Shown: positions 17,310 to 35,381 of the stretch, piece by piece
Position numbering within the stretch: the stretch's first letter is position 1
How the letters are laid out: the number at the start of each line of letters is the position of its first letter
DNA from: Planctomycetia bacterium
Lineage (GTDB): Bacteria; Planctomycetota; Planctomycetia; Pirellulales; Thermoguttaceae
DNA length: 41,611 nucleotides
Direction of reading: 5' to 3'
Assembly (NCBI GenBank): GCA_026401055.1
Contig: JAPLNP010000119.1
Coordinates: forward strand, 1 to 41,611
The notes under the pieces: generated by a model
Told to the model about the DNA's origin: nothing
Seen by the model: only the letters and a program-made list of their open reading frames with translations
Databases searched by the model: none
Translations under genes and position numbers: made by a program

Positions 17310-17849
17310 TTACTGGCTCAATTCCTCCAGTGCCGCGGCGAAGGCGGCATAGGCGCCGGCGTCGAACAGGACGAAGCGGACCAGCGACGGACGGCCGTGC
17401 TGGCGCAGAAACTCGATCGCGGTGGAGAGGCCGACCCGGGCGGCCTGGTCGATCGGGTAACGATAGGCCCCGGCGCTCAGCGCGGGCAGCGCGATGCTCT
17501 GGCAGTCGTGCTCGACGGCCAGTTCGAGGCAGCGGCGGTAGGCCCCGGCCAACAATTCCGCCTCGCCGCGACCGCCGCCGCTCCAGACCGGTCCGACCGC
17601 GTGAATGACGTACCGGGCCGCGAGGTCGCCGGCGCCGGTGATGACGGCGGACCCGGTGGGGCAGCCGTCTGGATATTTCTCGGCCGTCTCCTCCATGATG
17701 CTCGGGCCGCCGCGGCGGTGGATCGCGCCGTCGACGCCTCCCCCGCCCGCCAGCCGGCTGTTGGCGGCGTTGACGATGGCGTCGACCTGTTCGAGCGTGA
17801 TGTCGCCCTGGTGCAGCTCGACGGATTGGCCATTGATTTCGACCCGCAT
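17310..17849 (-). CDS. Macrodomain protein (ADP-ribose / O-acetyl-ADP-ribose hydrolase type)
   Basis: A 179-aa single macrodomain, similar to YmdB/MacroD enzymes that remove ADP-ribose or its acetyl ester. Features: GDIT at residues 15-18, VNAAN at 26-30, the catalytic-loop GGGGVDGAIHRRGG (35-48), GSAVITGAGDLAARYVIHAVGP and IALPALSAGAYRYP. These are diagnostic. Strong ribosome-binding site GGAGGGGG about 8 bases before the ATG. It is monocistronic, separated from the PQQ-propeller gene by the GTAGGCC repeats. Confidence 0.93.
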   Translation of the reverse strand: MRVEINGQSVELHQGDITLEQVDAIVNAANSRLAGGGGVDGAIHRRGGPSIMEETAEKYPDGCPTGSAVITGAGDLAARYVIHAVGPVWSGGGRGEAELLAGAYRRCLELAVEHDCQSIALPALSAGAYRYPIDQAARVGLSTAIEFLRQHGRPSLVRFVLFDAGAYAAFAAALEELSQ

Positions 17850-17958
17850 GGACCCCCTCCGTTGTGTGGCGAGACGTGAACGGGCCTAACCGGATATGCT
17901 AGACTTGTAGGCGGACAAAGGGTATCCCCCCACGGTGGTAAGCAACGGGACCATTCGG

Positions 17959-33793: not shown

Positions 33794-34170
33794 GGTGGGC
33801 TATGGACGCGTGTCTAGCGTGGCTCGCCGCTTGCGGGTTTGCGGCGTCCAGATTGATGAAGCGACTATCTCGGACGTCTGACTCCTCACGAGTTGCCGTT
33901 AAGGTCGGTTGACCGGGTAGTCCCGAGAATCGGAGGTTTTCTGGGATAGTGGCGGTGGGATGTTCGCAGTCCGGTTGGCGGTCTGTCTTGGCAGTCCGTT
34001 GCGCGTTAGGCGGAAACTGCCTATCACGCAGAAAAGGCGTTGCAATACAGCAACTTCCTGCTAGAATGCGACTTGCGAAAAGCGTCTATCTGCGCGTTAG
34101 GCCGCATATCTGACGCCTACAGGTTATTGGCAGAGACTCCCTATACACAAAGCAACTGAGGGATCGATTC
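33794..34170. other. Intergenic region with attC-like core repeats
   Basis: Holds a hairpin CGCCGC/GCGGCG (about 33830-33852), the direct repeat GCAGTCCG, two copies of GCGCGTTAGGC (34001-34011 and 34092-34102), and short inverted segments between them. No protein-coding frame is supported. It is the left flank of a foreign-looking methyltransferase gene. Confidence 0.55.
34001..34102 (+). repeat. Duplicated GCGCGTTAGGC cores (probable decayed attC and cassette boundary)
   Basis: Each GTTAGGC is a perfect GTTRRRY core. The second one pairs with GCCTATC at 34019-34025 to give an imperfect 14-bp inverted repeat (GCCTATCACGCAGA against TCTGCGCGTTAGGC, 12 of 14 pairs), with an internal hairpin GTTGC/GCAAC. 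The first copy has no clear left partner upstream. Together these look like a decayed attC of 84 bp. Confidence 0.4.
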
Positions 34171-34995
34171 ATGGATACGTGGAAGTTCTACGACATCACT
34201 CATCGTAAGCACGTGGTATGCAATCCTACGAACGAGGAGAAGCTCGCACGCTTGGTGGACCTCGTGCAGCTTCCGACAGCCGCACGTGTGGTCGACATCG
34301 CCTGCGGGAAGGGCGAATTCCTGATGCGTCTGGCGGAGGCATACGGAGTGCGCGGCGTAGGCGTGGACCTCTCGCCCTTCTTCATCGCCGAGGCAGAACG
34401 AAGGCTCCAAGCGCGCGTGCCACAGGCAGCAGTCACCTTCACCCAAATGGATGGCGCTGATTTCAAACCTGACAAGCCACACAGCCTCACACTGGCTTCG
34501 TGCATTGGGGCGAGCTGGGTTTTCGGCGGGCACGCGCAGACGCTGGACGCGCTCGTCGGCATGGCCGAGCCCGATGGCTGGGTGATCGTGGGGGAGCCGT
34601 ACTGGTTGCAGGAGCCGCCGGACGAGTACTTGCAGGCGATTGGGCTACCAAGAGACGCCTTCGGAAGCCACGCGGAAAACGTTGAAGCAGGCCAGCGGCT
34701 AGGGCTCGACCTCGTGCATACTCTGGTGAGCAGCAAGGACGACCGGGACCGATATGAAGGTCTTCAGTGGCATGCGATGGCGGACTACGCGCGCACCGAC
34801 CGAGATGACGCTGATCTTCCAGAACTGCTTGAGCGCGTGGCGAAGGAGAAATCAGCCTACTTGAGGTGGGGTAGAGATGTCTTGGGCTGGGCGATCTACG
34901 TATTCAGATGTCCACCCGCTCGGGGTGCTGAGGCGGTGTCGGGTGCCTTAAATAGCGGTTGCAGCCGACGGATCGCCCCTGGCGCCCGCGGCTGA
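34171..34995 (+). CDS. Class I SAM-dependent methyltransferase, probable former cassette gene
   Basis: A 274-residue soluble methyltransferase. Motif I is VVDIACGKGEFLMRLAEAYG (residues about 40-59), followed by GVGVDLSPFFIAEAERR (motif II Asp), VTFTQMDGADF and LASCIGASWVFGG. The acceptor is unknown. Base composition is more balanced than in neighbours. The end is unusual: after RCPPARG the last about 20 residues are encoded by an attC-like hairpin (34945-35012), and the sequence GCC-TTA-AAT stands where a cassette would have GCC-TAA-CAA, so the original stop was probably lost. Start: ATG with GAGGGAT about 8 bases upstream. Confidence 0.85.
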   Translation: MDTWKFYDITHRKHVVCNPTNEEKLARLVDLVQLPTAARVVDIACGKGEFLMRLAEAYGVRGVGVDLSPFFIAEAERRLQARVPQAAVTFTQMDGADFKPDKPHSLTLASCIGASWVFGGHAQTLDALVGMAEPDGWVIVGEPYWLQEPPDEYLQAIGLPRDAFGSHAENVEAGQRLGLDLVHTLVSSKDDRDRYEGLQWHAMADYARTDRDDADLPELLERVAKEKSAYLRWGRDVLGWAIYVFRCPPARGAEAVSGALNSGCSRRIAPGARG

Positions 34996-35012
34996 ACCGC
35001 AACACGTTCCGG
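34945..35012 (+). repeat. attC-like site 5 (decayed), overlapping a gene's 3' end
   Basis: Left arm GCGGTTGCAGCCG (34955-34967) pairs with CGGCTGAACCGC (34989-35000) leaving exactly one G unpaired (34961), the same feature as in sites 1-4. The right core is GTTCCGG (35006-35012); the left core reads GCCTTAA instead of GCCTAAC. At 68 bp it is within the normal size range. The degenerate cores suggest that it is no longer active. Confidence 0.55.
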
Positions 35013-35381
35013 CCACTGTCCCATCAAACCACCGTTTTCCGGGACGCGAGTTGCCGCCGACCGCGGCTCATGGGCAGCGCGGCACCTGTGAAAAAGATGG
35101 ACACGCCGTACCGCAGGATCTGCCAGTGCCGTCGGCTTTGTTGACGGAGGATGGGTCCCCTTCGGATGCTGCCGCGACTTGCCTGCCCGACCGCAGCATC
35201 CTGACCTGGCGATGATCTACGGTGTGCCGGAGGGGTCTATCTGCCGAGGTACTCCGAGGTGGCACTGGCGGTGCCATACGGCGACAGTGCCCGGCCCGCC
35301 CCGCCGCTCTTTTCAAGCCTCCCCTGGGCGGGTATGATTGTGCCCGATGTATCATCGGATGTCCTTCCCGAAGGAGAAGCC
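35013..35381. other. Intergenic region upstream of the transporter
   Basis: No supported gene. It contains the inverted repeat GGATGCTGC/GCAGCATCC (about 35165-35205) and a GTGGCACTGGCGGTGCC word (about 35260), related to the repeats at 4737 and 37685. An AAGGAG ribosome-binding site lies just before 35382. Confidence 0.45.

Follow-up and report, generated by a model that had tools for sequence, protein, structure and literature searches.

Integron mobilization units are integron fragments bracketed by inverted repeats, which take the form of two MITE copies, and a short GTT-type motif is needed by the integron integrase (IntI) at its core sites. The core motif has been described previously (PMC10127599), as has the term integron mobilization unit or MITE-flanked integron (PMC5444012, PMC3189936). 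In the reverse-integron layout, which has been reported for Blastopirellula marina (PMC6557892), intI, attI and the cassettes follow one another in one direction. For integron remnants with attC but without intI, the reporting default of IntegronFinder 2.0 is two attC (PMC9024848), so that a locus with a single attC, such as that described here, falls below it.

The DNA analysed (hereafter, the window) comprised positions 1-41,611 of the forward strand of contig JAPLNP010000119.1 from a Planctomycetia bacterium (GCA_026401055.1), the own assembly of which, at 6.68 Mb, is fragmented and 87% complete. Judging from the sequence, positions 33920-35045 of the window are very probably the remnant of a reverse integron. 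The remnant is made up of an attI with a Pc-like promoter, a single locked methyltransferase cassette and an eroded attC (Table 1).

Table 1. Features of the integron remnant and its flanks (window positions).
Feature	Position	Strand	Basis
10-bp direct repeat CGAGTTGCCG, left copy, possible target duplication	33889..33898	.	longest word common to both 60-bp outer flanks, 0/1000 shuffles
Inverted repeat, left arm, 34 bp, imperfect	33920..33953	+	27/34 bases complementary to 35012-35045, 0/1000 shuffles
Putative intI 3'-end relic (frame ..WDVRSPVGGLSWQSVAR*; IntI ends ..GVRSPADGL..)	33945..33993	+	tail profile 8.6 bits, E 0.004
Predicted attI site	33990..34152	+	homologue immediately follows integron integrase genes; model match 105 bits, E 1.1e-29 in genome
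Pc-like promoter TTGCAA-16-TAGAAT, extended -10, inside attI	34040..34067	+	position conserved among attI
attI/cassette junction AAAG|CAACTG, GTT core lost	34150..34154	+	other attI end ACAAG^TT; close cassette copies also lack TT here
Class I SAM-dependent methyltransferase gene, 274 aa	34171..34995	+	Pfam Methyltransf_25, E 1.3e-10; PDB relatives
Eroded attC: R'' GCCTTAAAT, L''/L' stem with one extrahelical G, R' GTTCCGG	34945..35008	+	fold, covariance model; right half common to G403 and L240
CCTTA, site of extra T abolishing stop codon	34946..34950	+	CC-TAA / CC-TGA in aligned close relatives
15 codons read from attC DNA (LNSGCSRRIAPGARG), then TGA stop in L'	34948..34995	+	comparison with copies
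Inverted repeat, right arm, 34 bp	35012..35045	-	sequence ACTGTCCCATCAAA.. recurs after cassette in L239, L240 and G403
10-bp direct repeat CGAGTTGCCG, right copy	35047..35056	.	same flank comparison

The attI element and its promoter

The element upstream of the methyltransferase gene, approximately 160 bp in length, contained both copies of GCGCGTTAGGC (34001-34011 and 34092-34102), which were in direct orientation with a spacing of 91 bp and each of which lay within the 12-mer TGCGCGTTAGGC (34000-34011 and 34091-34102). The 11-mer was noted at only these two sites in the 6.68-Mb assembly, and relatives of the sequence around the two copies were present in the same order. With a profile built from six relatives of the element, which was used to locate further copies, the element was found within about 10 bp 3' of intI in at least six genomes of the order (G559, G541, G537, G496, G353 and G495). 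The adjoining intI genes pass the TIGR02249 cut-off, and gene order at these loci was intI, attI, cassette and attC (attC at 1815 and 2142 in L158). From this position and homology, the upstream element is predicted to function as an attI. The conserved part of attI ended in ACAAG^TT, beyond which the sequences diverged, and this point would be the site of insertion.

The duplicated cores before the gene, to which an earlier note on this DNA had drawn attention, are thus real as sequence copies but are internal repeats of attI and have no role as attC cores. The proposal that the cassette had been inserted outside any array was not sustained, since the upstream cores belong to an attI that directly follows intI in relatives; the cassette appears to occupy the canonical place, adjoining attI, of an integron without intI. 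When the suggested attC at 34019-34102 was searched with a covariance model, the score was that of chance (10.5 bits, E 0.85), and the hairpin in this region, the outer stem of which was without an extrahelical base, barely surpassed shuffles on the + strand (z -1.3); on the chance score it was rejected as an attC. Classification of the upstream element as a REP or MITE, prompted by an inverted copy in G369, was dropped once the element had been located beside intI. An Rfam scan gave no match, nor did a search of the own genome with the simple pattern CCTAAC..GTTAGG.

The promoter conserved in the attI family was (G/T)TGACA-17-TACAAT. At least 9 of 12 consensus matches were noted at this position in 25 of 42 attI, compared with 0.47 expected from shuffles, although these attI sequences are related and the cases are therefore not independent. 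The Pc promoter of a complete integron is thus present in the window at the level of sequence.

The cassette and its attC

The 3' hairpin, formed by pairing of GCGGTT-G-CAGCCG with CGGCTGAACCGC, had one extrahelical G and a DNA fold of -21.5 kcal/mol (z -4.1) that was equalled by none of 200 shuffles; the hairpin with one unpaired G noticed earlier at the 3' end of the gene therefore folds as claimed. With an attC covariance model made from 17 planctomycete attC sites, located by their cores, positions 34957-35005 scored 23.9 bits (E 3e-4), which was the top score of the window and the third in the genome, and the fourth attC of the genome, on contig C100, had the same architecture as the window site. 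Positions 34945-35008 are a genuine but eroded attC, and detection of this site by the covariance model, a check that had been proposed, bore out the reading of the gene as an integron cassette. The locus has the composition of a cassette, i.e., one ORF followed by an attC with an extrahelical base, and, with an attC and no intI nearby, that of a single-attC remnant of the CALIN type.

The GTT/AAC triplets were missing from the junction (AAAGCAAC) and from R'' (GCCTTAAAT), GTT being kept in R' only. In copies where the junction was readable it was ACAAG|GCAGCTGAG or similar, without TT, and readable R'' were GCCTAAAT or GCCTGAAT, without AAC. Since relatives also lack GTT at the junction and AAC in R'', the triplets would have been lost before the unit spread, and the cassette appears to have been locked before spreading. 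Decay of attC, as proposed earlier, is thus seen in R'', from which AAC is gone, but probably did not affect R', since G403 has the same GTTCCGG. The latter is probably attI-derived sequence left by insertion at attI rather than a product of decay. Interpretation of GTTCCGG as the mark of a secondary genomic target was dropped, as G403 has it too and attI-side sequence accounts for it.

The methyltransferase and its missing stop codon

The gene product matched Methyltransf_25 with 42.3 bits against a cut-off of 27, which places it among class I SAM methyltransferases, and the PDB relatives 5bp7, 5epe and 1nkv (YjhP) aligned over residues 1-245. Approximately 13 planctomycete copies of the methyltransferase cassette were found, mostly 84-96% identical. 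The whole unit (33929-35030, 1103 bp) was present in G403 (L243) with 88% DNA identity and different neighbouring genes. In the remaining copies the left end stopped at varying points within attI, and in L239, L240 and L244 the match began only at 34143-34147, the end of attI; the same cassette end was thus noted elsewhere in these three, none of which starts at a functional core. No match was obtained in a plasmid search with the unit. In L289 (3768-4830), from a chromosome of the Phycisphaerales, a copy of this attI with 94% identity directly followed what looked by eye like an ISAs1-type transposase gene, and the methyltransferase behind it ran into a stretch of N. Methyltransferases of roughly 50-75% identity were seen in MAGs of Chloroflexi, Nitrospirota, cyanobacteria, Acidobacteria and others (L247-L296), and attC were noted near some of the distant homologues (L269, L266 and L291). 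By its distribution the methyltransferase appears to be a widely transferred gene.

The window carried GCC-TTA-AAT at the position of GCC-TAA-ATA or GCC-TGA-ATA in relatives, i.e., one inserted T, and the ORF ended at the TGA of GGC-TGA-ACC in L'. The earlier note, which had expected GCC-TAA-CAA here, was correct in that the stop codon is missing, but the change is a 1-nt insertion of T and no substitution; likewise, the ORF does read into attC to gain a tail, but one of 15 residues (LNSGCSRRIAPGARG) and not about 20. Close copies ended in ..RGAEAVSGA*, seven of them exactly at residue 259 with TGA or TAA in R'', and read-through was seen in none of 11 readable copies. Distant homologues ended 0-13 residues past the conserved ..YVFR, and in the proposed comparison of C-termini the tail was absent from all homologues outside integrons.

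Read-through would be due to a 1-nt insertion or to an assembly error. The latter, which concerns the tail only and would put the true C-terminus at residue 259, is possible though not favoured. In its favour, the change is a single inserted base in a draft assembly, and all close copies carry a stop codon at or near this position. Against it, a second cassette of the own genome, on contig C100, has likewise lost the R'' stop, with CAA in place of TAA, and terminates at the L' TGA as well. Loss in that cassette was by substitution (GGC-CAA-CAA, with its stop at CGC-TGA), and this second case lowers the likelihood of an assembly error in the window.

Probable loss of intI and distribution of orphan attI

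No intI above the TIGR02249 cut-off was found in the own genome, as represented by its fragmented, 87% complete assembly. The locus is thus without the intI of a complete integron and has an attI adjoining the first cassette (R2, 105 bits). With a profile of the intI 3' end, strong relics were noted just before attI on the own contigs C100 (36.9 bits) and C440 (27.4 bits). The relic in the window was collinear with attI and abutted it, and the best score in 1040 shuffles of all loci was 5.0 bits; taken alone it would be a weak indication of a former intI. A tblastn search for an intI relic within the window gave no match beside attI, the relic being visible to the tail profile only.

The attI sequence model detected 5 sites in the own genome, 9 in G405 and 7 in G406. 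Within the family, attI was present in 23 of 119 genomes and intI over the cut-off in three, and the two sets did not overlap. Within the order, a tally by hand from tables gave 130 attI sites in 61 of 246 genomes, and nine of these sites had an intI match (E <= 1e-60) no more than 100 bp away. Single-contig genomes (G419, G434, G381, G506, G551 and G485) had 1 to 6 attI sites and no intI among the matches listed, so fragmentation is not the cause. The start of an ORF lay close downstream of most attI sites, and at some (G419, G580 and G406:C643) an attC came right after the gene. The own-genome attI sites that could be aligned were 49-63% identical and showed no grouping in a tree. Separate or ancient acquisition is therefore probable, and recent dispersal of attI inside the own genome was not supported.

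Several other arrangements of attI were noted. A second own attI unit (L215, 3181-4938, contig G000:C100) consisted of an intI tail relic, attI and a CAP12/Pycsar-type TIR-domain gene, downstream of which were a partial attI right end and another ORF. Three more attI-like sites were present in the own genome (L214 on C440, L216 on C418 and L217 on C461), that on C418 leading a YbjQ-type gene. In L126 (9832-10842, G405:C25) and L215 (4349-4389), a second gene was preceded by a repeat of the attI right half that began at the inner GCGCGTTAGGC or further on, as though a moving gene could take the inner core or the right half along with it. L124 (8824-10040, G419:C1) had attI copies in tandem at a distance of 927 bp; the duplication covered about 240 bp with 93% identity, and the gene enclosed by the two copies ended in a clear attC (58 bits).

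Elsewhere in the window, three attC-like sites with conserved GAAC.ATCGGATGCAC..TTGATCCGTAACGTT were noted in a row at 890-2110 (899-981, 1475-1556 and 2024-2105), in the same orientation and 550-576 bp apart. This region is a two-cassette array without intI and is probably the first cassette of the earlier note. A macro-domain gene (17310-17890, - strand) had GTTAGGC just upstream and no attC downstream; about two occurrences of GTTAGGC alone are expected in the window. Positions 35122-35275, outside the unit, were 71% identical at the DNA level to part of contig C294 (G000:C294:1975-2128).

Ends of the unit

The 1.1-kb unit has terminal inverted repeats (27/34) of the kind that mark a MITE or integron mobilization unit, and a weaker pair was noted in G403 (6/1000 shuffles). 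No inverted repeats were found at other orphan attI units, and their interpretation as a general trait of such units was therefore rejected, as they are limited to the window unit and G403. The left copy of CGAGTTGCCG lies 21 bp outside the left arm and so is not adjacent to it.

Discussion

Of the other explanations for this locus, that of the earlier note, in which IntI inserted the cassette at a secondary genomic site outside integrons with two attC-type cores upstream, has in its favour that cores of the GTTRRRY type do occur there, unique in the genome, and that the 3' attC is real. It is nevertheless hardly credible, given that the upstream sequence has 160 bp of homology with sites adjoining intI and is at chance with the attC model, and that in three relatives cassette homology begins at the end of attI, at neither GTTAGGC. 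Scarcely better placed, and very unlikely, is the reading of the element as a promoter or leader repeat that travels with genes and has no role as a recombination site. This would agree with the conserved promoter, with the start of an ORF shortly downstream in nearly all copies and with the distance of the majority of copies from intI, but not with the nine places where the element is beside intI, the relics of intI tails at others, the ACAAG^TT junction or the attC-bearing cassettes downstream of the element.

Doubtful, although appreciably more probable than either of these, is the view of the 1.1-kb unit as non-autonomous and transposable (of MITE or integron-mobilization-unit type), carrying the integron remnant and spreading by transposition. 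Such a unit is compatible with the integron remnant as best explanation and would replace vertical descent plus erosion as the mode of spread. The 34-bp inverted repeat at both ends, with its weaker counterpart in G403, the occurrence of the whole G403 unit between different genes, the right-end block found again downstream of the cassette in L239 and L240 and the 10-bp direct repeat in the flanks are what would be expected of transposition. Against this, most other copies are without the left end and have different stopping points, other orphan attI units are without such repeats, the direct repeat is 21 bp from the left arm, and a partner transposase was not identified.

In the preferred reading, that of a reverse integron remnant, the cassette would have been captured at attI by IntI, after which all of intI but a short piece of its 3' end would have been lost. 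Fixation, or locking, of the cassette would have followed, with transcription from Pc inside attI, and attI may still be recognisable because of this transcription. After locking, the whole unit would have reached unrelated loci among planctomycetes by horizontal transfer, possibly as an inverted-repeat unit. Finally, in the own genome an extra T would have removed the R'' stop codon, so that the enzyme would run 15 residues into the attC stem and terminate at a TGA that happens to stand in L'.

Integron surveys target intI and attC, and an attI family that is recognisable by sequence even where intI is absent reveals integron history that these miss. The locus also suggests how captured cassettes could turn into ordinary genes of the chromosome, through loss of intI and of the core triplets with Pc kept, and its stop codon lost inside attC is a case, readable through close copies, of a recombination site turned protein. 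The orphan attI family is the more interesting result, the single locus being a modest curiosity. Tentatively, and with less than even confidence, it may be proposed that within the order dispersed attI with Pc outlive and outnumber the integrases, each locking one gene under a ready promoter, and that the methyltransferase unit at least travels as a discrete inverted-repeat element. If so, integrons would be a source of portable promoter-gene units as well as of arrays.

Among described systems, the window resembles the reverse (unusual) integrons of, for example, Blastopirellula marina and Treponema denticola (PMC6557892), in which intI, attI and cassettes are co-oriented and attI carries or adjoins Pc, but differs in that intI is gone but for a scrap, the cassette is single and its cores are locked. 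With CALIN and single-attC remnants (IntegronFinder 2.0, PMC9024848) it has in common an attC without intI, whereas the window remnant has an attI. Pseudo-integrons with intI pseudogenes (PMC2426708) are similar in having a decayed intI beside integron parts; their intI is interrupted, whereas that of the window is nearly all missing and attI is the surviving part. Like integron mobilization units, the window unit holds an integron fragment between inverted repeats, but as a single element with terminal inverted repeats and with the transposase partner not identified. Its protein, in turn, is homologous over residues 1-245 to the full length of YjhP-type class I SAM methyltransferases (1nkv, 5bp7 and 5epe), from which it differs in being 29 residues longer, the final 15 of these being from attC DNA.
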